From positions 248,001-312,000 of the forward strand of contig NZ_JPKG01000059.1 in NCBI RefSeq assembly GCF_000735605.1: 64,000 nt of DNA, given 5' to 3'. The stretch is from Allobosea sp. LC85. GTDB taxonomy: Bacteria > Pseudomonadota > Alphaproteobacteria > Rhizobiales > Beijerinckiaceae. Positions 46,856 to 60,529 of this stretch are shown here, in pieces (position 1 is the first letter of the stretch; each line of letters opens with the position of its first letter). A program made the translations under genes and the position numbers. The notes under the pieces are model-generated. The model was not told the origin of the DNA. It did no database searches and saw only the letters and a list, made by a program, of their open reading frames with translations.

Positions 46856-47730
46856 CCGGGCTGGCGACTTTCCTCGAAGCCCATCTCGAGCAAGGCGCCA
46901 TCCTTGTCAGCATCGAGCGTGCTGAAGGATCGACCCCGCGCGAAGCCGGCGCGACAATGATCGTCACCAGCGAAGACAGCTTCGGGACGATCGGCGGCGG
47001 CCAGCTCGAATTCCACTGCACCGACATCGCCCTTGAGATGCTGGCGAGCGGCGAGACCTCGCGACGCCTCGATATTCCGCTGGGGCCGCAGATGGGCCAG
47101 TGTTGCGGCGGCCGGGTCGGTGTCGTGCTGGAACGGGCCAGGCCACCCCATCTCGCTACCCTCCAGGCTGCCGAAGCGGCAAGACGCGCGGCGCAGCCTG
47201 CCGTCCTCATCCTCGGCGCCGGCCATACCGGGCGCGCCCTTGCCGAGGCCCTCATACGCCTGCCGCTGACGGTCATTTTGATCGACGACCGCGAAGGCCG
47301 CATGCGCGATCTTCCCGATGGGGTTGCATGGCTGCGACTGGACGACCCGGTCGAGGCCATCGCCTCGGCCCAGCCCGGTACCGCCTTCGTCATCCTCTCC
47401 CATAGCCATGCGCTCGATTATCGACTGACCGAGGCTGCGCTCCTGCGCGGGGATGCCGCCTATGTCGGCATGATCGGCTCTAGAACAAAGCGCGCGCGCT
47501 TCGCGGCCAGCTTTCGCCGGCTCCACCCTGCAAGCGATGCCTTGACACGCCTGACCTGCCCGATCGGCGGGGACGATGTGGACGACAAGCGCCCCGAGGT
47601 CATTGCTGCCTTGACGGCAGCCGAACTGGTGCGGAGCTTGCTTGCCAAGCAACAGGCTTCCGGGCAAAGCGTGGCGCAGGCCCGACAGGGTCCGGGGAGA
47701 AGGGCAGGAGATGACGGCGTCGCCGCATGA
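46852..47730 (+). CDS. xdhC: Xanthine dehydrogenase accessory protein XdhC
   Basis: 292 residues. The XdhC/CoxI N-terminal part has EGSTPREAGATMIV, GTIGGGQLEF and the MGQCCGGRV cysteine motif. The C-terminal Rossmann part has VLILGAGHTGRALAEAL and YVGMIGSRTKRARF. It binds and sulfurates molybdenum cofactor and inserts it into XdhB. The last 20 bp overlap the following transporter ATPase gene, so the import and oxidation genes form one transcript. Confidence 0.94.
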   Translation: MTGLATFLEAHLEQGAILVSIERAEGSTPREAGATMIVTSEDSFGTIGGGQLEFHCTDIALEMLASGETSRRLDIPLGPQMGQCCGGRVGVVLERARPPHLATLQAAEAARRAAQPAVLILGAGHTGRALAEALIRLPLTVILIDDREGRMRDLPDGVAWLRLDDPVEAIASAQPGTAFVILSHSHALDYRLTEAALLRGDAAYVGMIGSRTKRARFAASFRRLHPASDALTRLTCPIGGDDVDDKRPEVIAALTAAELVRSLLAKQQASGQSVAQARQGPGRRAGDDGVAA

Positions 47731-49276
47731 CAGGACGGATACGCCGCCCCGACTCGTGCTGTCGGGCGTCTCCAAGAGCTTTCCCGGCGTGAAAGCCAAT
47801 GATGACATCAGCTTCAGCGTAAAGCCCGGCGAGATCCACGCCCTGCTCGGCGAGAACGGGGCTGGCAAGTCGACGCTGGTCAAGGTCATCTACGGCGTTC
47901 AACAAGCTGATTCAGGCAGCATTTCCTGGGATGGCCAGCCTGTTTCGATCCCCTCGCCCAAGGCGGCGCGGCGGCTCGGCATCGGCATGGTCTTCCAGCA
48001 TTTCTCGCTGTTCGATGCGATGACGGTGATCGAGAATATAGCGCTCGGCCTCGACGAGGCCGTGGATCGCGAGGAGCTGAAGACCCGCGTCGCCAAGGTT
48101 CTGCAGAGCTATTCGCTGCCGCTCGATCCCGAGCGCGAGGTCCATACGCTCTCGGTGGGCGAGCGCCAGCGCATCGAGATCGTCCGCTGCCTGCTGCAGA
48201 AACCAAGGCTCCTGATCATGGACGAGCCGACTTCGGTCCTGACTCCGCAGGAGGTCGAGCGACTGTTCGAGACCCTGCGGCAGATCGCGTCCGAAGGCTG
48301 CTCGATCCTCTACATCAGCCACAAACTGCACGAGATCAAAGCCTTGTGCGACACCGCCACGATCCTGCGCGCCGGCCGGGTCGTCGCGACCTGCGATCCC
48401 CAGCAGGAGACGACACGGCGCATGGCCGAGTTGATGATTGGCGCCGAACTGCGGCAGATCGAGAACACCCATTCCGGCAGGATCGGCAAGCGACGGCTGA
48501 TCGTTTCAGGTCTCACCCTGCCCGGCGAACCGCCCTTCGGCACCAGCTTGCGCGACATCAGTTTCGAGGCACGGGCCGGCGAGATCCTCGGCATCGCCGG
48601 TGTTGCGGGCAACGGCCAGGCCGAACTGCTCGGCGCCCTGTCGGGCGAGCGCCTCAGCGCGGTGCCGAACGCCATCATGCTCGACGGCAAACCCGTCGGC
48701 AGCGAGGGGGCGGGCGCGAGGCGCAGCGCCGGCCTCGCCTGCGTTCCGGAGGAGCGCAACGGACACGCCGCAGTGCCCGACTTCTCGCTGGCCGAGAATG
48801 CCATCCTGACGGCGCGCTACCGGCTGCCTCTGGCACCACGCGGCTTCATCCGCCTTGCAGCGGTCCGGCGCTTCGCCCAAGCCGTCATCGGCCGGTTCGA
48901 TGTGCGCACCACCGGCCCCGGCTCTCCCGCCCGCGCCTTGTCCGGGGGCAATCTGCAGAAATTCATCATGGGCCGCGAGATCGGCCAGGAGCCAGGGGTC
49001 CTCGTGGTCTCGCAGCCGACCTGGGGGGTCGACGCGGGCGCGGCAGCGGCGATCCGGCAGGCGCTGGTCGATCTGGCGGCGAAGGGCTCTGCGGTCGTGG
49101 TGATCTCGCAGGACCTCGATGAACTGCTCGAGCTGGCCGACCGGCTCAGCGTCATCAATGAGGGCCGGCTCTCGCCCCCGCGTCCGGTCGCGGAGCTCGC
49201 GATCGACGAGATCGGCCTGATGATGGGCGGCGTCCATGGCGCAGCGCAGGCCGAGGGAGCGCCACTTCATGCTTGA
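47711..49276 (+). CDS. Nucleoside/purine ABC transporter ATP-binding protein (two ABC domains)
   Basis: 521 residues from ATG 47711, with GGCAGGAG upstream. The first domain is intact: GENGAGKST, LSVGERQRIEIVRCLL, LLIMDEPTSVLTPQE. In the second, Walker A is degenerate (GVAGNGQAE) and Walker B reads VLVVSQPTWGVD, without the Asp-Glu pair, while the signature LSGGNLQKFIMGREI is kept. This asymmetry is usual for BmpB/NupA-type importers. It energises the permeases at 49269 and 50345. With xdhABC upstream, purines or nucleosides are the likely cargo. Confidence 0.93.
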   Translation: MTASPHDRTDTPPRLVLSGVSKSFPGVKANDDISFSVKPGEIHALLGENGAGKSTLVKVIYGVQQADSGSISWDGQPVSIPSPKAARRLGIGMVFQHFSLFDAMTVIENIALGLDEAVDREELKTRVAKVLQSYSLPLDPEREVHTLSVGERQRIEIVRCLLQKPRLLIMDEPTSVLTPQEVERLFETLRQIASEGCSILYISHKLHEIKALCDTATILRAGRVVATCDPQQETTRRMAELMIGAELRQIENTHSGRIGKRRLIVSGLTLPGEPPFGTSLRDISFEARAGEILGIAGVAGNGQAELLGALSGERLSAVPNAIMLDGKPVGSEGAGARRSAGLACVPEERNGHAAVPDFSLAENAILTARYRLPLAPRGFIRLAAVRRFAQAVIGRFDVRTTGPGSPARALSGGNLQKFIMGREIGQEPGVLVVSQPTWGVDAGAAAAIRQALVDLAAKGSAVVVISQDLDELLELADRLSVINEGRLSPPRPVAELAIDEIGLMMGGVHGAAQAEGAPLHA

Positions 49277-50345
49277 ATGGCGCCGCCGCCGCGAACCAAG
49301 CCGGGCGATGCTCTATCTGAGCCCGCTGATCGCGATCGCGCTCACCATGGTGACCGGCGCCATGGTCTTCACGGCGATGGGGTATGACGGACTGACCGCG
49401 GTCTTCGACTTCTTCCTCGTGCCCTTCCTCGAGCCGCATCGCTGGCCGGATCTCGGCGTCAAGGCTGCGCCGCTGGTGATGATCGCGCTCGGCCTCGCCA
49501 TCGGCTTTCGCGCCAATGTCTGGAATATCGGCGCCGAGGGCCAGTACATCATGGGCGCCATCGCCGGCACCGGCGTTGCCCTCGCAACCTATGAGATGAG
49601 CGGCTGGTGGATCCTGCCGGCCATGGCTCTCGCAGGCATCCTCGGCGGCATGGCCTGGGCCGCAATCCCGGCGCTGCTGCGCGTCAGGCTTCAGGTCAGC
49701 GAAATCCTGACCAGCCTGATGCTGACCTATGTCGCGGTGCAGGCCCTGTATTATCTCGTGCGCGGCCCGTGGAAGGATCCGGACGGCTTCAACTTCCCGC
49801 AAACGCGAATGTTCACGGCCGATCAGACGCTGCCGGTCATCATCCCGGAGACGCTCGTCCATCTCGGCATTCCGCTTGCACTCCTCATTGCTGTGATTGC
49901 CTGGCTTGTGATCGAGAAGACGACTGCGGGCTATGCGGTGAAGGTTGTCGGCCTCGCACCGGCTGCGGCGCGTCACGGCGGCTTCAGCGCGGAACGGACA
50001 ACCTGGGTGACGATGCTGATCGGAGGCGGGCTCGCGGGTCTTGCGGGAATCTTCGAGGCGGCAGGCCCCTTCAGCCAGCTCACCCCGCAATTCCCGGTCG
50101 GCTACGGTTTCACTGCCATCATCGTTGCCTTCCTCGGCCGCCTGCATCCGCTCGGCATCGTGCTTGGCGGTGTCGTTCTGGCCGCAACCTATGTCGGCGG
50201 CGAGATCGCCCAGACGACCGTCCGGCTGCCACAGGCCGCGACCGGCATGTTCCAGGCAATGTTGCTGTTCTTCCTGCTCGCGACCGATGTGCTGGTCCGT
50301 TATCGCATCGCCTTCAGGGCACGGCCGGCAAAGGTCTTGCCTTGA
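49269..50345 (+). CDS. Nucleoside/purine ABC transporter permease 1
   Basis: 358 residues from ATG 49269, overlapping the ATPase gene by 8 bp. It has about eight to ten membrane helices of the BPD_transp_2 class, with GFRANVWNIGAEGQYIMGAIAG and the cytoplasmic loop EKTTAGYAVKVVGLAPAAARHGGF. It is the larger of the two permeases, as in BmpC/NupP systems. Its stop overlaps the next start by one base (TGATG). Confidence 0.92.
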   Translation: MLEWRRRREPSRAMLYLSPLIAIALTMVTGAMVFTAMGYDGLTAVFDFFLVPFLEPHRWPDLGVKAAPLVMIALGLAIGFRANVWNIGAEGQYIMGAIAGTGVALATYEMSGWWILPAMALAGILGGMAWAAIPALLRVRLQVSEILTSLMLTYVAVQALYYLVRGPWKDPDGFNFPQTRMFTADQTLPVIIPETLVHLGIPLALLIAVIAWLVIEKTTAGYAVKVVGLAPAAARHGGFSAERTTWVTMLIGGGLAGLAGIFEAAGPFSQLTPQFPVGYGFTAIIVAFLGRLHPLGIVLGGVVLAATYVGGEIAQTTVRLPQAATGMFQAMLLFFLLATDVLVRYRIAFRARPAKVLP

Positions 50346-51268
50346 TGAACAGCGTGATCCTGGTCTCGATCATCATGACCCTCGTCGCAGCGTCGACGCC
50401 GATCCTGCTCGCGGCGCTCGGCGAGCTCGTCGTCGAGAAGTCCGGCGTCCTCAATCTCGGTGTCGAGGGCATGATGCTGACCGGAGCCGTTGCCGGCTTC
50501 GCGGTCGCCTTCAGCACCGGCAGCGTTGCGCTCGGGCTCGTCGCCTCCGTGATCGCCGGCATTGCAACCGCGATGATCTTCGCCGTTCTGACCCTCAGCC
50601 TGACCGCCAACCAGGTCGCGACGGGCCTGGCGCTGACGATTTTCGGCGTCGGCGCCTCCTCGCTGATCGGCGCCGGCTTTGTCGGCCGCACGATCGATCG
50701 TCTCGGACCCTTGTTTCCCGAAGTGCTTGCCAGCCATCCCTGGCTGCGCGCGCTCTTCGGGCACGACATCATCGTCTATCTCTCGCTCGCCCTGGTTCTC
50801 GGCGTGAGCGTCTTCCTGCGTCGGACGCGCGCAGGATTGATCCTGCGAGCGGTCGGCGAGAATGATGCCTCGGCCCATGCCATCGGCTATCCCGTCATTG
50901 GCATCCGCTATGCGGCGATCGCCTTCGGCGGCGCGCTTGCAGGCCTTGGCGGCGCCTATTTCTCGCTGGCGCTGACGCCGATGTGGGCTGATCGCCTCAC
51001 GGCCGGGCGCGGCTGGATCGCGCTCGCGCTCGTCGTCTTCTCCGCCTGGAAGCCCGGCCGGCTCCTGCTCGGAGCCTATCTTTTCGGCGCGGTAATGACC
51101 TTCGAGCTTCAGGCGAAGGCTGCCGGCATCACCTGGCTCGCGCCGGAGGTGCTGGCGATGGCTCCCTATCTTGCGACAATCCTGGTTCTGACGATGATGT
51201 CGCTCGGTCGCAAAACGGGCCGGCTCGATGCGCCCGCCTGTCTCGGCAAACCCTTCTCGGTGTCCTGA
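50345..51268 (+). CDS. Nucleoside/purine ABC transporter permease 2
   Basis: 307 residues of BPD_transp_2 type. It has ALGELVVEKSGVLNLGVEGMMLTGAVAGF, NQVATGLALTIFGVGASSLIG, RRTRAGLILRAVGENDASAHAIGYPVIGIRY and YFSLALTPMWADRLTAGRGWIALALVVF, all standard for NupQ/BmpD-type permeases. It pairs with the protein at 49269-50345; the binding protein follows 30 bp later. Confidence 0.93.
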   Translation: MNSVILVSIIMTLVAASTPILLAALGELVVEKSGVLNLGVEGMMLTGAVAGFAVAFSTGSVALGLVASVIAGIATAMIFAVLTLSLTANQVATGLALTIFGVGASSLIGAGFVGRTIDRLGPLFPEVLASHPWLRALFGHDIIVYLSLALVLGVSVFLRRTRAGLILRAVGENDASAHAIGYPVIGIRYAAIAFGGALAGLGGAYFSLALTPMWADRLTAGRGWIALALVVFSAWKPGRLLLGAYLFGAVMTFELQAKAAGITWLAPEVLAMAPYLATILVLTMMSLGRKTGRLDAPACLGKPFSVS

Positions 51269-51298
51269 CGACGCCGCCAACCCATGGGGAGAACAACC

Positions 51299-52378
51299 AT
51301 GTCATCCATCATCACCCGCCGCACGCTCGTTGCCGGCGCCGCCGCGGCCTCCACCCTGCCCCTGCTCGGCCGCAGCGCCTTCGCGCAGGCGCCGCTTGGT
51401 GTCGGCTTCATCTATGTCGGTCCGGTCGGCGATCATGGCTGGAGCTGGACGCATGATCAGGGCCGCAAGGCGCTCGAGAAGCAGTATGGCGACAAGATCA
51501 AGACCAGCTTCATCGAGAACGTCGCCGAGGGGCCGGATGCGGCGCGCGCGCTGCGCCAGCTGGCGCAGGCCGGCAACCAGCTGATCTTCGCGACCTCCTT
51601 CGGTTTCATGAACCCGACCATCCAGGTCGCAAAGCAGTTCCCGAAGCTGAAATTCGAGCACGCCACCGGCTATCAGCGCGCCGAGAACGTCGCGACCTAC
51701 AATGCCCGCTTCTATGAGGGCCGCGCCGTGATCGGCACGATTGCGGGCCACATGTCGAAGAGCGGACAGGCCGGCTACATCGCCTCCTTCCCGATTCCGG
51801 AGGTCGTGATGGGCATCAACGCCTTCACGCTCGCCGCCCGCAAGGTGAACCCGAACTTCAAGACCAAGGTCATCTGGGCGTCGACCTGGTACGACCCGGC
51901 CAAGGAAGCCGACGCCGCCAAGGCGCTGATCGACCAGGGCGCCGATGTGATCACCCAGCATACCGACAGCCCCGCCGCCCTGCAGGCGGCCGAGCAGCGC
52001 GGCGTCTTCGCCTTCGGCCAGGCTTCCGACATGAGCGCCTTCGCCCCCAAGGCGCATCTCTCGGCGATCGTCGACGACTGGTCGGGCTACTACATCAAGC
52101 GCGTCAAGGACGTCATGGACGGCAGCTGGAAGTCCGGCGACGTCTGGGGCGGGATCAAGGACGGTTTCGTCAAGCTCGCCCCCTTCAATGCCGCGGTGAC
52201 GCCGGCTGCACGCGCAGCCGCGGAAGAGGTCCAGAAAGGCATCGTTGCCGGCACGCTCCACCCCTTCACCGGCGAGCTCAAGGACCAGAAGGGCGTGTTG
52301 CGCCTCAAGTCCGGCGAGACGGCCTCCGACGAGATGCTGTCGAAGATGGACTGGTACGTCGAAGGCGTGCAGGCCTGA
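51299..52378 (+). CDS. BMP-family (PnrA-like) nucleoside/purine-binding protein
   Basis: 359 residues from ATG 51299. The N-terminus MSSIITRRTLVAGAAAASTL has twin arginines (TRRTLV), suggesting Tat export, with cleavage near SAFAQ. The mature protein has VGFIYVGPVGDHGWSWTHDQGRKALEKQ, IFATSFGFMNPTIQVAKQFP, FYEGRAVIGTIAGHMSKSGQAGYIASFPIPEVVMGINAFTLAA and VITQHTDSPAALQAAEQ, typical of PnrA/TmpC-like proteins. It captures purine nucleosides or bases for the importer encoded upstream. It is the last gene of the xdh-transporter unit. Confidence 0.93.
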   Translation: MSSIITRRTLVAGAAAASTLPLLGRSAFAQAPLGVGFIYVGPVGDHGWSWTHDQGRKALEKQYGDKIKTSFIENVAEGPDAARALRQLAQAGNQLIFATSFGFMNPTIQVAKQFPKLKFEHATGYQRAENVATYNARFYEGRAVIGTIAGHMSKSGQAGYIASFPIPEVVMGINAFTLAARKVNPNFKTKVIWASTWYDPAKEADAAKALIDQGADVITQHTDSPAALQAAEQRGVFAFGQASDMSAFAPKAHLSAIVDDWSGYYIKRVKDVMDGSWKSGDVWGGIKDGFVKLAPFNAAVTPAARAAAEEVQKGIVAGTLHPFTGELKDQKGVLRLKSGETASDEMLSKMDWYVEGVQA

Positions 52379-52447: not shown

Positions 52448-52494
52448 GAGGCGGCATGACACGCCGAACGATTCAGCATCAAAGCCTCTTGCAG

Positions 52495-52517
52495 ATATTT
52501 TAAGCTTGAAACAAAAT
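52495..52517. promoter_or_regulatory. Putative shared operator upstream of the liv-type operon
   Basis: The core TATTTTAAGCTTGAAACAA (52496-52514) is an imperfect dyad about AAGCTT and matches 17 of 19 bases of the site at 60265-60283 in front of the FAD monooxygenase. It is sharply AT-rich against its surroundings and ends 80 bp before the binding-protein start. Confidence 0.6.
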
Positions 52518-52596
52518 GGGGAACATACCGGCTGGAAGGGGATGGGGATCTCCGCTGGCCAGTAGGCTCCTTGCAGGTCCCGGGAGGACATCGGAC

Positions 52597-53766
52597 ATGA
52601 AGCTCAAACTCGCATTGTCTATCGGCACGGCGCTCATTGCGCTGGGGATTGCCGGCGCACAGGCCCAGGAGCCGATCAAGATCGGCGTCGTCAGCGTTCT
52701 TTCCGGCCCGCAGGCCGCGCTTGGCCAGCAGTTGCGCGATGGCTTCCAGCTCGCAGTCGACCAGATGGGCGGCAAGCTCGGCGGACGGCCGGTGCAGATC
52801 ACGGTGATCGATGACGAGCTGAAGCCCGATGTCGCAGTCGGCAAGGTTCGCGGCTTCGTCGAGGGCGGCAAGGTCGATTTCGTCGTCGGCCCGGTGTTCT
52901 CGAACATCCTGGGCGCGATCGCCAAGCCGGTTCTGGACTCCGGCGCGGTACTGATCAGCCCGAATGCCGGCCCTTCGACGCTCGCAGGCAAGGCCTGCCA
53001 CCAGAACTTCTTCGTGACCTCGTACCAGAACGACCAGGTCCACGAGGTGCTGGGCAAATACGCGCAGGACCAGGGCTTCAAGCGCGCCTACATCATGGCG
53101 CCGAACTACCAGGCGGGTAAGGACTCGCTCGCAGGCTTCAAGAACTATTTCAAGGGCGAGGTCGTCGACGAGGTCTATGTCCCGCTGAACCAGCTCGATT
53201 TCTCAGCAGAGCTCGCCAAGATCGCCGCGGCCAAGCCCGACGTCGTCTTCGCCTTCATGCCGGGTGGTCTCGGCGTGAATCTGGTCAAGCAGTGGTCGCA
53301 GGCCGGCCTGCAAGGCAAGATCCCGTTCCTCTCCGCTTTCACGGTCGATGAATCGACCCTGCCCGCACAGCAGGACGCAGCGGTCGGCCTCTTCGGCGGC
53401 ATGACCTGGGCGCCCAACACGGACAATCCGCAGAACAAGAAGTTCGTCGCGGATTATGAGGCTGCCTACAAGATCGTGCCCGGCTCCTACGCCATGCAGG
53501 CTTATGATGCCGCCCTGCTGATCGACTCGGCGGTCAAGGGCGCGGGCGGCACGGCAGACAAGGACAAGCTGCGAGCCGCGATCAAGAAGGCCGACTTCAA
53601 GTCGCTGCGCGGCAACTTCAAGTTCAACACCAATGGCTACCCGATCCAGGACTTCTATCTGGTCAAGGTGGCCAAGCGCGCGGACGGCAAGTTCCAGACC
53701 GAGATCGCGCAGAAGGTGTTCTCGGACTATGCCGACCCGCATGCGAAGGATTGCGCGCTGAAGTGA
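52597..53766 (+). CDS. livK: Liv-type ABC transporter substrate-binding protein
   Basis: 389 residues from ATG 52597, with GGGAGGA upstream. A signal peptide (MKLKLALSIGTALIALGIAG, cleavage after AQAQ) precedes a Peripla_BP_6 fold: IKIGVVSVLSGPQAALGQQLRDGFQLAVDQMGGKLGGRPV, VVGPVFSNILGAIAKPVLDSG, SPNAGPSTLAGKACHQNFF. Two Cys (GKACHQ and the C-terminal KDCALK) may matter for folding. This fold binds leucine-type amino acids but also aromatic acids and amides. The shared operator with an aromatic monooxygenase and the cupin at the operon end favour an aromatic acid ligand (inference). Confidence 0.9.
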   Translation: MKLKLALSIGTALIALGIAGAQAQEPIKIGVVSVLSGPQAALGQQLRDGFQLAVDQMGGKLGGRPVQITVIDDELKPDVAVGKVRGFVEGGKVDFVVGPVFSNILGAIAKPVLDSGAVLISPNAGPSTLAGKACHQNFFVTSYQNDQVHEVLGKYAQDQGFKRAYIMAPNYQAGKDSLAGFKNYFKGEVVDEVYVPLNQLDFSAELAKIAAAKPDVVFAFMPGGLGVNLVKQWSQAGLQGKIPFLSAFTVDESTLPAQQDAAVGLFGGMTWAPNTDNPQNKKFVADYEAAYKIVPGSYAMQAYDAALLIDSAVKGAGGTADKDKLRAAIKKADFKSLRGNFKFNTNGYPIQDFYLVKVAKRADGKFQTEIAQKVFSDYADPHAKDCALK

Positions 53767-53967
53767 GGAGACTGCCCGGGGGAGCTCGTGTCCCTTCGTC
53801 TCTCTGGGAGGAGAGAACAGCTTGGATGATGGCAGGGTGCCGGAGAGCATCCACCCGTCATCGGAGCAGGACATCAGCTCCCCTTGGCGACATCCTCGCC
53901 CTCGCCGCCCCTGCCCTTTCCGGGGAAGGGAGCCCGTGTCTGACTTGCGTCCCGCTGCGGCCGCCGA

Positions 53968-54015
53968 GAGCATGCTGCGAAAAAGTGGCAACGGTTTTTC
54001 GCATAAAGCATGCTC
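53968..54015 (+). repeat. Nested hairpin repeat, related to the 15399/23440 family
   Basis: Outer arms GAGCATGCT (53968-53976) and AGCATGCTC (54007-54015); inner arms TGCGAAAAA (53976-53984) and TTTTTCGCA (53995-54003); loop GTGGCAACGG. The layout (GCAT outer arm, CGAAAA-GTGG-...-GG-TTTTCG inner arm) is the same as the two repeats at 15399 and 23440, with diverged arms. Confidence 0.7.
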
Positions 54016-54030
54016 TAAACTATGAGAATC

Positions 54031-54078
54031 GATCACGTTTTCTGCGTTTGGACGGTTTCGTCCAAACGCAGCGTGATC
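54031..54078 (+). repeat. Second long hairpin beside the nested repeat
   Basis: GATCACG (54031-54037) pairs with CGTGATC (54072-54078), and CTGCGTTTGGAC (54042-54053) pairs perfectly with GTCCAAACGCAG (54060-54071), with a TTTT bulge on one side and loop GGTTTC. It ends 37 bp before the permease start. Confidence 0.7.
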
Positions 54079-54115
54079 GAGGGGCGTGCCGCGCCAGTCA
54101 ACGAACATCGAGCTG

Positions 54116-55042
54116 ATGACCACCAGTCTCCTCATCGTCCAGATCCTGAACGGATTGCAGCTCGGCATCCTGCTGTTCCTGGTGGCAGCGGGGCTGACGC
54201 TGGTCTTCGGTGTCATGGATTTCATCAATCTGGCCCATGGCGTGCAGTACATGCTGGGCGCCTATCTCGCCGTGACCTTCGTCGGGCTGACCGGGAGTTT
54301 CGTGCTGGGGCTGTTGCTCGCGCTGGCGGCAGCGCTCGTCATCGGGCTTGCCCTCGAATTCCTGGTCTTCCGCCATCTCTATGAACGCGATCATCTCGAC
54401 CAGGTTCTCGCGACCTTCGGGCTCATCCTGCTCCTGAACCAGGGCGTCAAGATCGTCTGGGGTGCGGCCCCCCTCTCCGTCCCGGTCCCGGGATTCCTGT
54501 CGGGCTCGGTGCGGTTGATGGACGGCATTCTCTATCCGACCTACCGCTTCGCCTTGATAGGCGCCGGCCTGGCGGTCGGCGGATTGCTCTGGTTCATCGT
54601 CGAGCGGACGCGCACCGGCATGCTGCTGCGGGCCGGCGCCTCGAACGCGCCGATGGTCTCGGCACTCGGCGTCGATATCCGCAAGCTGTTCATGGTCGTC
54701 TTCGCCTTCGGAACCATGCTGGCCGGATTTGCCGGCGCGATGGCGGCACCGATCCTTTCGGTCGAGCCCGGCATGGGCGACACCGTGCTGATTCTCGCCT
54801 TCGTCGTCATCGTCGTCGGCGGCATCGGTTCGATCCGCGGCGCCTTCGTCGGCGCGCTGATCGTCGGACTGGTGGACACGCTCGGGCGCTCGTTCATGAA
54901 CGACCTGCTGCGCCTGTTCATGAGCGCCCCCTCGGCCCGTGCGACCGGAGCTGCGCTCTCTTCCATGCTGATCTATCTGGTGATGGCCATCGTCCTGTTC
55001 GTGCGCCCCGAAGGCCTGCTGCCCGCCAAGGGCCGGACATGA
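54116..55042 (+). CDS. livH: Liv-type ABC transporter permease LivH
   Basis: 308 residues from ATG 54116, beginning TTSLLIVQILNGLQLGILLFLVAAGLTLVFGVMDFINLAHG, which is the LivH hallmark. GTG 54086 would add ten residues, but its GAGGGG is only one base away, so I prefer the ATG. The loop TRTGMLLRAGASNAPMVSALGVDIRKLFMVVFAFG contacts the ATPase. It overlaps livM by 4 bp. The large hairpin region in front probably reduces its expression relative to the binding protein. Confidence 0.93.
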   Translation: MTTSLLIVQILNGLQLGILLFLVAAGLTLVFGVMDFINLAHGVQYMLGAYLAVTFVGLTGSFVLGLLLALAAALVIGLALEFLVFRHLYERDHLDQVLATFGLILLLNQGVKIVWGAAPLSVPVPGFLSGSVRLMDGILYPTYRFALIGAGLAVGGLLWFIVERTRTGMLLRAGASNAPMVSALGVDIRKLFMVVFAFGTMLAGFAGAMAAPILSVEPGMGDTVLILAFVVIVVGGIGSIRGAFVGALIVGLVDTLGRSFMNDLLRLFMSAPSARATGAALSSMLIYLVMAIVLFVRPEGLLPAKGRT

Positions 55043-56034
55043 GCGCGGCGCCCACCATCGCCGGCGCAGCCGGGCCTGCCCAATCCCGGCCAAGGTCGCG
55101 CCCGGTCCTGGCGCTGGTGCTCTTCGCAGCGCTCGCACTCGTCCCCGTCGCCGTCTCGCTCGGTGTTCCCGCCCATTGGCTGTCGCTGGTGACGCGGGCG
55201 ATGATCTTCGCCATCGCGGCCCTGTCGCTCGATCTCATCCTGGGTGTCGGCGGGCTGGTCTCCTTCGGGCATGCCGCCTTCATCGGCATTGGCGCCTATG
55301 TGACCGGCATCATGATCACCGAGGGCCGCACCGAGACGCTGCTGATCCTGCCCGTGCTCTTCGTCATCTGCGCCCTCTTCGCGGCGATCACAGGCGCGGT
55401 CTCGCTACGCACGCGCGGCGTCGCCTTCATCATGATCACGCTGGCCTTCGGGCAAATGGTGTTCTTCCTGGCGCAGGCGCTTTCCGCCTATGGCGGCGAC
55501 GATGGCTTGACGCTCCATGCGCACAGCACGATCGCCGGCTTCGACATCGCCGCAAGCCGGACCGGCTTCTTCTACATCGTGCTTGGCGCGCTTGTCGGCT
55601 GCTACGGGCTGGTCCGCATCATCGTCGCCTCCCGCTTCGGCCGCGTGCTGCGCGCGGCGCGCGAGAACGCGACCCGCGTGACCGTGACCGGGTACGATGT
55701 CGGGCGCGTGCGCCTCATCGCCTATGTCATCAGCGGCATGATCGCGGGCCTGTCCGGCTTCTTCCTCGCCAACCAGACCGAATTCGTCAGCCCCGCCTTC
55801 ATGTCCTGGCAGCGCTCGGGCGAATTGATCTTCATGGTGGTGCTCGGCGGCGTCGGCTCGCTGCATGGCGCGATCATCGGCGCGCTCGCCTTTCTCTTCG
55901 CCGAAGACGTGCTCGCCGGCATCACCGAGCACTGGAAGGCGATCTTCGGGCCGCTCATCGTTCTCTTCGTGCTGTTCACGCGGGGCGGCATCGTCGGCAT
56001 CCTCGCAAAGATGCGGGGAAACAGCGATGGCTGA
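55039..56034 (+). CDS. livM: Liv-type ABC transporter permease LivM
   Basis: 331 residues with a proline/arginine-rich cytoplasmic N-terminus of about 22 residues. LivM blocks are AALSLDLILGVGGLVSFGHAAFIGIGAYV, LRTRGVAFIMITLAFGQMVFFLA, GRVLRAARENATRVTVTGYDVGRVRLIAYVISGMIAG and GGVGSLHGAIIGALAF. It forms the channel with LivH. It overlaps livH by 4 bp and livG by 8 bp. Confidence 0.94.
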   Translation: MSAAPTIAGAAGPAQSRPRSRPVLALVLFAALALVPVAVSLGVPAHWLSLVTRAMIFAIAALSLDLILGVGGLVSFGHAAFIGIGAYVTGIMITEGRTETLLILPVLFVICALFAAITGAVSLRTRGVAFIMITLAFGQMVFFLAQALSAYGGDDGLTLHAHSTIAGFDIAASRTGFFYIVLGALVGCYGLVRIIVASRFGRVLRAARENATRVTVTGYDVGRVRLIAYVISGMIAGLSGFFLANQTEFVSPAFMSWQRSGELIFMVVLGGVGSLHGAIIGALAFLFAEDVLAGITEHWKAIFGPLIVLFVLFTRGGIVGILAKMRGNSDG

Positions 56035-56776
56035 GCCCGTTCTCGTCCTCGATGGCGTCCGCAAGTCCTTCGGTGCCCTGAAGGTGACCGACGGCGTCAG
56101 CTTCTCCGTCGCTCCGGGCGAGTTGCATGCGCTGATCGGCCCGAACGGTGCCGGCAAGACTACGCTCGTGCACCAGATTTCCGGCATGCTGCGTCCGGAC
56201 GCAGGCAGCATTCGCTTTCGCGGCACCGACATCACCGGACTGTCGCCGGAGAAACGCGCGCGCGCCGGGCTCGCTCGCACCTTTCAGATCACCTCGACCA
56301 TCGCTTCGCTCTCGGTGCTGGAGAACGTGGCTCTCAGTGTGCAGGCGCGGGCGACACATCCGCTGGCCCTGTTCCGCAACGCAGCCCGCGACGAGCGCCT
56401 GAACGGCCCCGCATGGGCAGCGATCGCCTCAGTCGGGCTCAGCGAGCGAGCGCATGTTCCGGCCGGCCGGCTCTCGCATGGCGAGAAACGCGCGCTCGAG
56501 ATCGCGATGGCACTGACCCTCGAGCCAGCTGCGATTCTGCTCGACGAGCCGCTGGCCGGCGTCGGACACGAGGAAGGCGCGCGCCTGATCGCGCTGCTGA
56601 AGAGCCTCAAGGGCCGCTACGCCATGCTGCTGGTCGAACACGACATGGAGGCGGTGTTCGCGCTCGCGGACAAGGTCAGCGTGCTGGTCTATGGCCGTGT
56701 CGTCGCCTCGGGTGATCCGGCCGCCGTGCGTGCCGACCCGACCGTGCGCGAAGCCTATCTCGGCGAGGAGGGCTAG
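56027..56776 (+). CDS. livG: Liv-type ABC transporter ATP-binding protein LivG
   Basis: 249 residues from ATG 56027. Walker A is GPNGAGKTT. The family segment FRGTDITGLSPEKRARAGLARTFQ follows. The signature is LSHGEKRALEIAMAL, with His in place of the second Gly, a LivG-typical deviation. Walker B is ILLDEPLAGVG, followed by VEHDMEAVFALAD. The gap to livF is 3 bp. Confidence 0.93.
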   Translation: MAEPVLVLDGVRKSFGALKVTDGVSFSVAPGELHALIGPNGAGKTTLVHQISGMLRPDAGSIRFRGTDITGLSPEKRARAGLARTFQITSTIASLSVLENVALSVQARATHPLALFRNAARDERLNGPAWAAIASVGLSERAHVPAGRLSHGEKRALEIAMALTLEPAAILLDEPLAGVGHEEGARLIALLKSLKGRYAMLLVEHDMEAVFALADKVSVLVYGRVVASGDPAAVRADPTVREAYLGEEG

Positions 56777-56779
56777 GGC

Positions 56780-57478
56780 ATGCTCGTCGTCGAAGCTCTG
56801 GATGCCGGCTACGGCGAAGCGCAGATCCTGTTCGGCGTCGATCTTGCGATCGCCGAGGGCGAGGTGGTGACGTTGCTCGGCCGCAACGGCATGGGCAAGA
56901 CCACGACGATCCGCGCCATCATGGGACTGATTCCGGCCAGGGCCGGCCGCATCAGCGTCTCCGGCCGCGATCTGACCGGCGCTCCGCCCTTCCGGATCGC
57001 GCAGGCCGGAATCGGCTTGGTGCCGGAAGGCCGCCAGATCTTTCCGACGCTCAGCGTGGAAGAAAACCTGATCGCCACGGCAGCCAGCCGCTTCGGCACG
57101 CCACGCTGGAATATCGAGCGCATCTACGCATTCCTGCCGCGCCTCAAGGAGAGGCGGACCAATCGCGGCAACCAGCTTTCCGGCGGCGAGCAGCAGATGC
57201 TGGCGATCGGCCGGGCCCTGATGACCAACCCCAAGCTGGTCATTCTCGACGAGGCGACGGAAGGGCTGGCGCCGATCATCCGCCAGGAAATCTGGTCCTG
57301 CCTTGCCGCGCTGAAAGCTGACGGCGAATCCATCCTGGTCATCGACAAGAATGTCGACGCGCTGGCCAGGATCGCCGATCGACATATCGTCCTGGAAAAG
57401 GGCCGCGTCGTCTGGCGCGGATCGAGCGACGACTTGCGCAGCGACAGCGCTGTGAAAGATCGCTTCCTGCACCTTTAG
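56780..57478 (+). CDS. livF: Liv-type ABC transporter ATP-binding protein LivF
   Basis: 232 residues. Walker A is GRNGMGKTT, then PPFRIAQAGIGLVPEGRQIFPTLSVEENL, typical of LivF. The signature is LSGGEQQMLAIGRAL. Walker B reads VILDEATEGLAPII; Ala replaces the common Pro after Asp-Glu. The usual LVEQN near the H-loop is LVIDKNVDAL here, so the H-loop His is not in its normal place, which is worth noting. The cupin gene follows 14 bp later. Confidence 0.93.
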   Translation: MLVVEALDAGYGEAQILFGVDLAIAEGEVVTLLGRNGMGKTTTIRAIMGLIPARAGRISVSGRDLTGAPPFRIAQAGIGLVPEGRQIFPTLSVEENLIATAASRFGTPRWNIERIYAFLPRLKERRTNRGNQLSGGEQQMLAIGRALMTNPKLVILDEATEGLAPIIRQEIWSCLAALKADGESILVIDKNVDALARIADRHIVLEKGRVVWRGSSDDLRSDSAVKDRFLHL

Positions 57479-57492
57479 AGAAGGAGAGACCG

Positions 57493-57951
57493 ATGAAGCC
57501 ACTGACAGCCGGCGTAACGAGGGCCAATCAGGGCATCGATGCCATTTCGTGGAACATTCTCGGCCAGACTTATGTCCCCAAGACACTGAGCCAGGATAGT
57601 TTCTCCTGGCATGCGACCTTCCCGCCCGGCACCTTCGTACCGCCGCATGTCCACCCGACGCAGGACGAGTTCATCTATCTGCTCGAGGGCCGACTTGATC
57701 TCGTTCTCGATGGAGAGGAAGCGCATGCCTTGCCCGGCGACCTGATCCGCCTGCCGCGCAACGTTCCGCACGGCATCTTCAACAAGAGCGACAGCCCGGC
57801 AAAGTGCCTGTTCTGGGTCGCACCCACCGGCCGCCTCTACGACCTGTTCTGGGCGATCCATTCGATGCCGGAGCAGAACCCCGCAGAGGTCGTCGCGCTC
57901 GCCGCCAAATACGAGATCGACTTCCTGCCGCCGCCTCCAGACGGGGCGTGA
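57493..57951 (+). CDS. Small cupin-domain protein
   Basis: 152 residues forming one cupin barrel. The metal-ligand motif 1 is PPHVHPTQDEFIYLLEG (two His, one Glu) and motif 2 is LPGDLIRLPRNVPHGIFN (His). It could be a dioxygenase, isomerase or binding protein for the imported compound. GAAGGAGAG gives a good ribosome site. It is the last gene of the liv-type operon, which hints that it acts on the transported substrate. Confidence 0.88.
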   Translation: MKPLTAGVTRANQGIDAISWNILGQTYVPKTLSQDSFSWHATFPPGTFVPPHVHPTQDEFIYLLEGRLDLVLDGEEAHALPGDLIRLPRNVPHGIFNKSDSPAKCLFWVAPTGRLYDLFWAIHSMPEQNPAEVVALAAKYEIDFLPPPPDGA

Positions 57952-57957
57952 CGAACC

Positions 57958-57980
57958 TGCCGGAAACGGAAAGTCCGGCA
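57958..57980 (+). terminator. Hairpin after the liv-cupin operon
   Basis: TGCCGGA (57958-57964) pairs perfectly with TCCGGCA (57974-57980) around a 9-nt loop, 6 bp past the cupin stop. No T tract. Confidence 0.5.
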
Positions 57981-58054
57981 CCAGCGGAACCCGGGCCCGT
58001 GCACCCTGCGTTCATCTGCCGGCGCTAATCTGCCGCAATGATGGAGGTTGGAAC

Positions 58055-58399
58055 ATGAGGAAGGCGACGCTTTCCCTTGGCTTGCTCGCCGCGTTAGCAG
58101 CGGGCAACGCTACAGCAATGCCAGTCCCGGCGCTCGGCGAAGCGGGCCTGCCGCTCACGCAGGCCCAGATGCGCTGCAACGAATTCCGCTGCATCAACCC
58201 GCGCACCGGCGTCTACACCGAAAGCACCTGCGACTATCGCGGCTGCTATCCGAGCAGCCGCCCGCGTGGACGGCTTGGCCCTTATGGCGAGGACTATCGC
58301 TTCGGCCGCCGGCGGTTCGACAATGATGACGACTATCCGCGCTACCGGGGATATCGCCGCGACCGCTATCGCGATGACGACGATGATGATGACGATTGA
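58055..58399 (+). CDS. Small secreted protein with Arg/Tyr/Asp-rich tail
   Basis: 114 residues. A signal peptide (MRKATLSLGLLAALAAGNAT) is followed by a domain with four Cys (RCNEFRCINPRTGVYTESTCDYRGCYPSS), possibly two disulfides. The C-terminal 40 residues are Arg/Tyr/Asp-rich and end in nine acidic residues broken by none (DDDDDDDD). Such acidic tails can bind metals or basic surfaces. No family recognised. Codons look normal for the region. Monocistronic. Confidence 0.75.
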   Translation: MRKATLSLGLLAALAAGNATAMPVPALGEAGLPLTQAQMRCNEFRCINPRTGVYTESTCDYRGCYPSSRPRGRLGPYGEDYRFGRRRFDNDDDYPRYRGYRRDRYRDDDDDDDD

Positions 58400-58622
58400 T
58401 TCGCGCGTGGACGCCTTGCCGTTCGCGTTCGAGCACGATCGGCGATCCGAAATGCGGCGGCTTGGGAGGGCAACGAACGCGGAACGGCGCCCGAGAGGAT
58501 TTTGCTGAACAGCCGTTAAGGTTAAGGCAAGGTTAAAGCTGCAAGGCTCGGGTTAAACTGGCAATTCTCGCTCTTACGTAGCGGCACGCAAAATGCGTGC
58601 GGCAGAAGTTGGGGGCGGCATC

Positions 58623-58988
58623 ATGACGACCGAACGCCGTGAAGCACCACGGCAGCGTACCTTGCTGGGCGCGCGTATCGTTTTCAACAACCGCCATTCC
58701 ACGCTCGACTGCGTGGTGCGCAACCTTTCCGACGCAGGCGCTATGTTACTCATCTCCGATGCTATTGCCTTGCCGGCAGCATTCGAGCTTGAGATCGAGC
58801 ATAAGCGGCGCGTCTACGGCGCGCGCTTTCGGTGGCGCGATGGCGAGCGGGTCGGGATCGCCCTGGACGGGCGGCCTTCCTCAACCGCCGAAATCGTGCC
58901 CCTCGACCAGGCCCGTCGCCTGAAGCAATGCGAACAGAACAACGCGCAGCTCAAGGCACGCATTCAGCAACTGACCGAAGCCGGCTGA
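58623..58988 (+). CDS. PilZ-domain protein
   Basis: 121 residues from ATG 58623. The N-terminal RRxxxR motif appears as ERREAPRQRTLLGARIVFN, and the DxSxxG-like motif as VRNLSDAGAMLLIS, both of the c-di-GMP-binding PilZ domain. The tail (about 100-121) is a short amphipathic helix. It probably acts as a c-di-GMP receptor in motility or polysaccharide control. The 223 bp upstream include AT-richer, TTAAGG-repeating sequence (58514-58545) that may be the promoter. Confidence 0.85.
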   Translation: MTTERREAPRQRTLLGARIVFNNRHSTLDCVVRNLSDAGAMLLISDAIALPAAFELEIEHKRRVYGARFRWRDGERVGIALDGRPSSTAEIVPLDQARRLKQCEQNNAQLKARIQQLTEAG

Positions 58989-58998
58989 TCAATCCGTT

Positions 58999-60240
58999 TC
59001 AGCGCCGGGTCAGTTGCTCCGGTGCAAAGCCGGCCTTGCCGGCATAGGATTTCACGATCGCCTCGCGCCGGGCGTAGCTCATGACCCGTTCGACATCGTC
59101 GAAGCCGTTCGGCGCGAGCGCCTCGACGGCGTCGATTACCCGTTCCGGGCCGCCGATCCGGTTCAAGGCCACAATTTGCGCGGTTGCAGGCAGGCGCACC
59201 GCCTCATAGGCCGCCAGTGCCTGGCGCGGATGCTCGCTGCTGACCAGCGCATCGGCAAGCGCGCGCGCATCGAGAATCGCCTGCGAGGCACCGTTGGAGC
59301 CGACCGGATACATCGGATGAGCGGCATCGCCGAGCAGCGTGACGCGGCCATGGGTCCAGCGCGGCAGCGGATCGCGGTCGCACATCGGGTAATCCCAGAA
59401 TCCGGGAGAGGCCTGGATCAGCGCAAGGATATCGACGCCGGGAATCGAGAAGCGACGCGCATAGGGCAGTACATCCTCAAGCCTGCCCGGTTTCGACCAG
59501 GCCTCCTTCGGAGGCGGCTTCGCCGGATCGCCGGTCCGGATATTGACGACCCAGTTGGTCAGGCGAGTGCCGGGCTTGCTGCCCGCAGCGATCGGATACA
59601 GCACCAGCTTTCCGGCCATGCCGCCGGCGATGATCATGCTCTCGCCGTCGAGGAAGGCCGGCCAGTCACAAGCCCCGCGCCACATCTGCACGCCATTCCA
59701 GCGCGGCGCCCCCTGGTTCGGAAAATATTGTCCGCGCACGCTGGAGTGGATGCCATCGGCGGCGATCAACACGTCGGCACGCGCCGTCTCGCCAGCCTCG
59801 CCGCGCCGTGCATCGGTAAAATGGGCAGTCACGCCGCCCTCGTCCTGGACGAACCCCTGCAGCCGGCGCCCGGTTCGCAGAGCCCCCTCCCCCAGGCGCT
59901 CGCGCACAGCCGCGCAGATCACGCCCTGCAAGCGGCCGCGATGAATCGAGAACTGCGGCACCGGCGCCCCGGCATGGAGCCCGCGCGGCTCGCGCCAGAC
60001 AGTCTGGCCAAAGCGGTTCATGTAGATGAGTTCGCGCGTTCTGATCGCGACGGCATCAAGCGCCGGCAGCAGGCCGATCTCGGCCAGTTCGCCGATCGCA
60101 TGCGGCAAGGTGTTGATGCCGACGCCGACCTCGCGGATCTCGCTCGACTGCTCGTAGACGGTTGCGGCAATGCCGCGCGCGTGCAGCATCAATGCGAGCG
60201 TCAGGCCGCCGATTCCGCCTCCGACGATGACAACCTTCAT
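58999..60240 (-). CDS. FAD-dependent aromatic monooxygenase (salicylate/hydroxybenzoate hydroxylase-like)
   Basis: 413 residues from ATG 60240, chosen because GGGGGGAC lies just upstream and [17 protein letters not shown] starts the FAD fold. Group A flavin monooxygenase motifs are GxGxxG (7-14), ADVLIAADGIHSSVRGQYFP (DG motif) and VTLLGDAAHPMYPVGSNGASQAILDARAL (GD motif). It would hydroxylate a hydroxylated aromatic acid using NAD(P)H and O2. It is monocistronic. A dyad at 60264-60283, almost the same as one before the liv operon, lies 24 bp upstream of its start. Confidence 0.9.
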   Translation of the reverse strand: MKVVIVGGGIGGLTLALMLHARGIAATVYEQSSEIREVGVGINTLPHAIGELAEIGLLPALDAVAIRTRELIYMNRFGQTVWREPRGLHAGAPVPQFSIHRGRLQGVICAAVRERLGEGALRTGRRLQGFVQDEGGVTAHFTDARRGEAGETARADVLIAADGIHSSVRGQYFPNQGAPRWNGVQMWRGACDWPAFLDGESMIIAGGMAGKLVLYPIAAGSKPGTRLTNWVVNIRTGDPAKPPPKEAWSKPGRLEDVLPYARRFSIPGVDILALIQASPGFWDYPMCDRDPLPRWTHGRVTLLGDAAHPMYPVGSNGASQAILDARALADALVSSEHPRQALAAYEAVRLPATAQIVALNRIGGPERVIDAVEALAPNGFDDVERVMSYARREAIVKSYAGKAGFAPEQLTRR

Positions 60241-60263
60241 GCGTCCCCCCGCATCAGCATTCA

Positions 60264-60283
60264 TTATTTTAAACTTGAAATAA
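60264..60283. promoter_or_regulatory. Putative shared operator upstream of the FAD monooxygenase
   Basis: TTATTTTAAACTTGAAATAA is a dyad with 8 of 10 paired positions matching. It agrees with the site at 52496-52514 in 17 of 19 bases. Half-sites of this kind (TTTCAAG/CTTGAAA) resemble MarR-type operators, but no MarR gene is in the window. Confidence 0.6.
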
Positions 60284-60529
60284 CAGGGTGAGATTTGTCA
60301 ATGACTCCTGTCATGGTGGCCGCACCGCTGATTTTTTGCACTCCTGAGGCGGGAACGAAGCGAAATGCTGTGCGTATCTAGCCCCAATGCCGTGTTTTTG
60401 GACGCCAACCGTGCCAAGTGGCAGTTTCGCACAGGGCGGACATGCAGTCGTCGCGCGATTCGCGGCGGCAGCAGGAGTTAGCATCCTCCCCAGCGACGAC
60501 TAACCAACACCGTTCTTCAGGAGACTTTC

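Follow-up and report, generated by a model that had tools for sequence, protein, structure and literature searches.

A conserved dyad as candidate operator of a proposed MarR regulon linking a liv-type importer and a flavin monooxygenase to predicted anthranilate breakdown in Bosea

A 19-bp dyad occurs twice in the DNA analyzed here, a 64,000-nucleotide stretch of Allobosea sp. LC85 (contig NZ_JPKG01000059.1, positions 248,001 to 312,000; hereafter, the window): once upstream of a livKHMGF-cupin operon and once upstream of a flavin adenine dinucleotide (FAD) monooxygenase gene on the other strand. As judged from sequence comparison, both copies are very probably operators of a single repressor that is common to tryptophan and anthranilate breakdown genes in Bosea and its relatives. 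We postulate that they belong to a MarR regulon combining anthranilate-type uptake with the breakdown of tryptophan through kynurenine and anthraniloyl-coenzyme A (CoA), a reading to which we assign a probability of roughly 0.85 and in which we infer binding, repression, the ligand, and the importer substrate.

Results

The sequence TATTTTAARCTTGAAAYAA is located at 52496 to 52514 (+) and at 60265 to 60283 (+), and 17 of 19 bases are identical between the two copies, exactly as a preliminary description of this DNA had reported; no match with up to three mismatches appeared in 100 dinucleotide shuffles of the window, giving a chance expectation of 0. The first copy (TATTTTAAGCTTGAAACAA; 52496..52514, +), a candidate operator through which MarR would control the liv operon, lies 82 bp from the livK ATG at 52597. 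The second (TATTTTAAACTTGAAATAA; 60265..60283, given no strand), the candidate operator of the monooxygenase gene, lies 24 bp from the ATG at 60240, which has a GGGGGGA stretch just 5' of it; an alternative in-frame ATG at 60264 abuts the dyad. That both copies form A+T-rich islands in G+C-rich DNA, as had also been noted, was borne out in the Bosea-type orthologues, where the G+C content of the dyads is 0.17 (livK) and 0.21 (monooxygenase), compared with 0.60 and 0.65 in the flanks. Among the same loci, sequence conservation is 0.99 in the livK dyad versus 0.56 and 0.61 in its flanks and 0.79 in the monooxygenase dyad versus 0.48 and 0.50.

We searched the whole genome (6.56 Mb in 74 contigs, the window being on contig C59), whose nearest named relatives belong to Bosea, and found three exact dyads, two in the window and one on C63, together with one copy with two mismatches on C7. 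Five matches with three mismatches were also found, of which two are the exact sites reversed and one is the two-mismatch site reversed; the remaining two are solitary and lie on C19 and C46 (L013, L014).

The exact dyad on C63 is situated 25 bp 5' of a tryptophan 2,3-dioxygenase (TDO) gene, which is followed by a divergent kynureninase-like gene. The TDO gene passes Pfam PF03301 (293.9 bits versus 34.9). The kynureninase-like protein scores over the cut-off of Aminotran_5 and below that of KYNU_C; a profile built from 14 relatives had kynureninase 1qz9 as its sole solved match (E 9.4e-11) and aligned to two annotated kynU sequences with an hhalign probability of 93.6. Its AlphaFold model is poor, with a mean pLDDT of 57.9. 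One PF04199 gene, on C52 and thus on a contig apart from the other pathway parts, is a candidate for kynurenine formamidase. The TDO dyad forms part of a more extensive inverted repeat, GGAGCAGTTATTT...AAATAACTGCTCC (L010:7170-7203), which stands directly 3' of a heme-transport-like ATPase gene.

The two-mismatch dyad on C7 lies about 26 bp 5' of a gene that encodes a 775-residue fusion of an FAD monooxygenase with an old yellow enzyme (OYE) domain, which we presume, from its likeness to 2-aminobenzoyl-CoA monooxygenase/reductase, to be of that type (ACMR). Divergent from it runs an operon for a short-chain dehydrogenase/reductase (SDR), a MarR protein, an enoyl-CoA hydratase, an acyl-CoA dehydrogenase, a CoA ligase, and RidA, with a weaker copy of the dyad (four mismatches) 5' of the SDR gene. 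The ligase is a putative aryl-CoA ligase of the benzoate-CoA ligase family (TIGR02262, 410.8 bits versus 375.25), RidA scores above the gathering score of PF01042, and the MarR protein (L011:4620-5183, -) is above the gathering scores of the winged-helix families PF12802 and PF01047. The preliminary description had placed a MarR-type regulator outside the window; this gene, with a dyad at its own promoter, is the likely candidate.

At all four places the dyad coincides with promoter-like elements, which are consensus matches only. At the liv operon, a weak promoter-like TTGCAG-17-CAAAAT (52489..52517, +), which has 7 of 12 consensus bases and forms part of a block conserved in 27 loci, has its 17-base spacer filled by the dyad; at the monooxygenase gene the dyad covers the -10 region 3' of a -35-like TTGACA (60296..60301, -); and at the ACMR and TDO genes it overlaps the best -10 match. 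Such an overlap is consistent with repression by exclusion of RNA polymerase.

For the comparison within the genus, 61 genomes were used, the TDO, MarR, and ACMR loci being the best 30 of each search; we call Bosea-type those 31 of 45 loci whose monooxygenase is 82 to 98% identical, some of which come from metagenome-assembled genomes or stand under other record names. With up to two mismatches, the dyad is present in 56 of the 61 genomes, with 189 matches versus 2 for a reversed-pattern control (counts that include both readings of palindromic copies), and the genome-wide scatter that would have spoken against the preliminary description was not seen. At this threshold it is found 15 to 38 bp from the start in all 31 Bosea-type monooxygenase promoters (counted from residue 9 of the protein), in 27/27 livK promoters, the other four loci having no gene or promoter in the stretch, and in 10/11 TDO promoters; all seven outgroup livK promoters retain it as well. 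A second TDO type (29 to 48% identical), divergent from a kynureninase-like gene that is 53 to 57% identical, has a dyad with up to four mismatches at 17 of 19 loci and with up to three at 16, and the ACMR promoters have one with up to four mismatches in 30/30 cases and with up to three in 28. The control upstream regions of the Bosea-type loci gave 0/139 (BMP, 0/20; PilZ, 0/29; LivH, 0/29; LivF, 0/30; cupin, 0/31). G016, the only genome of the 61 that has neither a close MarR orthologue nor the fusion gene, has no site with up to two mismatches. The same is true of G002, G027, G038, and G052, in which MarR is present; two of these four show a dyad with three mismatches at the ACMR promoter (L147, L172).

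From the list of genus matches, 16 further sites were picked by hand for inspection. Ten are upstream of livK-type genes, three of them with a relative 69 to 71% identical and seven (L219-L221, L223, L224, L227, L230) belonging to a second liv-type importer of other genus members, with a LivK 47 to 51% identical. The other six include three two-mismatch dyads beside enoyl-CoA-hydratase-like genes in three genomes (L222:2560, L225:2490, L226:2464) and two one-mismatch dyads that adjoin, by eye, the 5' end of a carboxylesterase-like gene (L232:2697, L233:2372).

Beyond the genus, a related MarR protein (E 1e-25 or better) was found in 49 of 289 class-level genomes. For the best 29 loci besides that of the genome itself, we tested the 300 bp 5' of the SDR gene, or of the MarR gene if no SDR gene was found. 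An 18-base palindrome with up to four mismatches was present at 17/29 loci and perfect in four, and 21/29 loci beat 200 dinucleotide shuffles (p 0.035 or less). At L185 and L194, a diverged palindrome of the TTTAGATCTAAA or TTTAGACCTAAA type lies 5' of the fusion gene, possibly reflecting a shift in operator specificity. A search of the phylum detected related MarR proteins in 70 of 398 genomes; among 26 newly read loci, one of them from the genus, 16 had a dyad with up to five mismatches, versus 0 in one shuffle each. In eight of these 26 loci (L247-L254), which come from a single family with large genomes (perhaps Bradyrhizobium), one 3.5-kb stretch contains the MarR gene, a livK 64 to 72% identical to that of the window, and the CoA ligase gene. 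On plasmids of Mesorhizobium, Aminobacter, Ensifer, S. meliloti, and R. leguminosarum, a dyad with one to five mismatches separates the MarR gene from the fusion gene, and the Mesorhizobium, Ensifer, and S. meliloti plasmids have another 5' of the ligase gene.

Several other genera carry these genes as a single cluster, of which the scattered operons of Bosea thus represent separate pieces. The livK, cupin, monooxygenase, MarR, CoA ligase, and RidA genes occur together in L041, L209, L210, and L275, two of which also have kynA. In Rhabdaerophilum (L041), the monooxygenase gene follows the ligase gene and a RidA-like frame (by eye), beside cupin-liv; L044-L047 resemble L041 for the genes searched, and L043 and L049 show no ACMR cluster. 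On the plasmids of Paroceanicella and Roseivivax (L209, L210), liv-cupin-monooxygenase adjoins the MarR and ACMR genes, with kynA in Roseivivax, and on those of Ensifer and Aminobacter (L213, L215), ligase-kynA-liv, kynU, and MarR-ACMR stand together, with no monooxygenase gene in the stretch. The most complete arrangement, in L275, comprises kynU-kynA, RidA-ligase, MarR, livK-cupin, ACMR-monooxygenase, and SDR-enoyl-CoA hydratase genes within 16 kb that hold five dyads. A second cupin gene and a flavoprotein-like frame (by eye) in the same locus (L275:6708-8681), with a dyad upstream (8905), are perhaps a further accessory branch.

In the window, the importer operon encodes a livK-type substrate-binding protein (52597..53766, +; Peripla_BP_6), LivH-type (54086..55042, +) and LivM-type (55039..56034, +) permeases, and LivG-type (56027..56776, +; start set by eye at MAEPVLVL) and LivF-type (56780..57478, +) ATPases. 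The solved chain closest to LivK is 4evq, which we take to be R. palustris RPA0668. The operon ends with a single-domain cupin (57493..57951, +), which is partially similar to quercetin dioxygenase chains, over about 54 residues (E 1e-13), and in which H52, H54, E59, and H93 are invariant in 17/17 aligned sequences; judging from the cupin motif, these residues are presumably metal ligands. The group A FAD monooxygenase (58999..60240, -) scores over the cut-off of the PRK07538 subfamily, and its closest solved chains are 2rgj and 3c96 (E about 1e-93), which are labelled flavin-containing monooxygenase and which we take to be PhzS. Relatives at E 1e-120 or better were found in 10 of the 289 class-level genomes. 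In Actinobacteria, monooxygenase-cupin pairs occur at L053, L055, L058, and L059, where no pathway was apparent by eye among the open frames.

Discussion

We postulate that the dyad is the operator of the MarR-family repressor encoded on C7, outside the window. When no inducer is present, a MarR dimer placed between the -35 and -10 elements, or on top of them, would block at least four promoter regions: in the window, those of livKHMGF-cupin and the FAD monooxygenase gene; elsewhere, that of the TDO gene with its divergent kynureninase-like gene (C63) and that of the divergent pair formed on C7 by the ACMR-type hydroxylase/reductase gene and the SDR-MarR-enoyl-CoA hydratase-acyl-CoA dehydrogenase-CoA ligase-RidA operon. 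MarR would be released by an aromatic pathway metabolite, for which anthraniloyl-CoA or anthranilate is the most likely candidate, and this release would jointly switch on anthranilate-type uptake, the conversion of tryptophan to anthranilate, and the aerobic CoA-ester route. TDO, the kynureninase-like gene, the aryl-CoA ligase, RidA, and the CoA-ester hydroxylase/reductase point to kynurenine and anthraniloyl-CoA; the inducer is proposed on the basis of these genes and by analogy to MarR repressors that control aryl-CoA pathways elsewhere. The monooxygenase and the cupin probably have accessory roles, either feeding this pathway or cleaning it up. The earlier proposal of one regulon joining an aromatic-acid-type importer to a flavin monooxygenase is thereby supported at the level of sequence.

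A number of observations weigh against this reading. The TDO protein is below the cut-off of the NCBIfam model (164 versus 390.7 bits), the ACMR dyads are weaker in the genus, 19 of 30 having three mismatches, and no dyad was found at one TDO orthologue (L092) or at two loci of the second TDO type (L117, L118). Outside the Bosea-type loci, the monooxygenase gene has no dyad at seven outgroup and seven more distant loci (0/7 each); at five of the outgroup loci, pathway genes precede it on its own strand. In the class-level test, 8 of 29 loci failed against the shuffles: at four of these, the ACMR gene directly precedes the SDR gene, which puts the promoter outside the tested stretch; two have a diverged palindrome; and L182 and L197 fail as well. 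Seven of eight MarR loci outside the class have no palindrome (L268 has one with four mismatches), and the operator is therefore not universal. Among the plasmid loci, L209, L214, and L218 have no dyad with up to five mismatches and L210 has only two, both with five; L275 has none directly 5' of livK. All 37 MarR rows listed in the alignment carry V[ST]xGNxT around the recognition helix, whether the dyad is present or not, and the pattern is thus not discriminating. Finally, the fusion protein passes PRK08255 (1131.2 versus 1078 bits), which NCBIfam names salicylyl-CoA 5-hydroxylase.

This name keeps open a variant with the same MarR regulon in which the substrate is a hydroxybenzoate, e.g., salicylate converted via salicylyl-CoA to gentisyl-CoA, with TDO as a side member, and the reported ligands of RPA0668, namely, benzoate, 4-hydroxybenzoate, and salicylate, also suit it (PMC3223731). 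We consider it unlikely, given that the genome gave no match for a gentisate dioxygenase and that RidA, kynA, and kynU or kynureninase-like genes lie within the clusters or bear the dyad. The preliminary description had put forward salicylate, 3-hydroxybenzoate, and gentisate for expression tests, and as substrates these are not supported: the monooxygenase reaches 102 bits against a cut-off of 446 for the salicylate 1-monooxygenase model and 161 against 459 for the 3-hydroxybenzoate 6-monooxygenase model, and gentisate 1,2-dioxygenase (TIGR02272) had no match in the genome. The pairing of MarR with the dyad is predicted from sequence, GntR or other regulators are also present in some clusters, and the dyad is missing beside related MarR genes beyond the class and beside a few within it; another, unrelated regulator might hence bind the dyad, whose co-occurrence with the MarR gene would then reflect no more than a shared association with one pathway. 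It is improbable, however, that such a regulator would explain a dyad that stays 5' of the SDR-MarR unit at 21 of 29 class-level loci despite varying other neighbours, and the size of the palindrome is what we take to be expected for a MarR dimer. Both window sites are A+T-rich, yet a chance similarity of two such promoters is refuted by the counts: none expected in the window, 189 matches versus 2 reversed in 61 genomes, and 0/139 control upstream regions.

With the anthraniloyl-CoA pathway as the preferred reading, one further role can be envisioned, tentatively and with low probability, for the two accessory proteins: the cupin and the PhzS-like monooxygenase may form an unrecognised two-step route by which anthranilate is released from a compound with fused rings, e.g., a 4-quinolone. 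Hydroxylation beside the carbonyl by the flavin enzyme would be followed by ring opening by the quercetinase-like metal cupin. The freed anthranilate would enter the CoA pathway, under an anthraniloyl-CoA-sensing MarR, and the liv system would bring in the fused-ring compound or anthranilate.

The C7 genes resemble what we take to be the aerobic 2-aminobenzoyl-CoA pathway of Azoarcus/Aromatoleum evansii, with its aryl-CoA ligase, FAD-OYE fusion, enoyl-CoA hydratase, SDR, and acyl-CoA dehydrogenase, and RidA accompanies the anthraniloyl-CoA-type genes here too. Unlike in that system, a shared operator here appears to tie in the TDO and kynureninase-like genes, the liv importer, the cupin, and the PhzS-like monooxygenase from separate operons. 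PhzS-type flavin monooxygenases are the closest solved chains; their context is phenazine synthesis, whereas here it would be anthranilate catabolism. Bacterial kynurenine genes are controlled by KynR, a regulator of the Lrp/AsnC type; both regulators would act on kyn genes, but the regulator family and operator differ here, and MarR would cover the route from tryptophan to CoA esters. The iad auxin-degradation locus, which has the MarR repressors IadR and IadR2 and anthranilate as its product, shares both traits with the regulon proposed here (PMC9613470). That study identified neither a ligand nor a DNA site for IadR2; in the strain lacking it, gene 51 was the sole gene of the locus that seemed strongly upregulated whether or not indole-3-acetic acid was present (PMC9613470). 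At L272 and L273, a MarR gene whose product is 45 to 48% identical lies beside a Rieske dioxygenase gene, with SDR, RidA, and acyl-CoA dehydrogenase relatives near; these loci recall the iad locus, and the stretch holds only a five-mismatch dyad.

The regulon is real, conserved, and known in kind; the literature searched yielded no description of its operator or its content: the six dyad strings tried were absent among the matches listed, and no title or abstract opening there described a MarR protein of an anthraniloyl-CoA pathway. These results provide a candidate operator and a list of predicted target genes for a MarR subfamily found with anthranilate-CoA-type genes in many Alphaproteobacteria, and they propose a pathway for components of formerly unassigned function, namely, the liv importer, the cupin, and the flavin monooxygenase. 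They also point to a putative divergent kynureninase, to which none of the tried NCBIfam models gives a name. If the MarR protein is kin to IadR2, they may also hint at what this orphan regulator of the auxin locus senses.

Other features of the window

Directly 5' of the liv operon, an operon at 47642 to 52378 encodes an ABC importer with a BMP-type binding protein that is below the cut-off of the ABC_BMP_B6 model; the dyad is found in 0/20 of the upstream regions of this binding-protein gene. From 60530 onward (+), a short gene starting MTKNELIAAIADETGKT is HU-like by eye.

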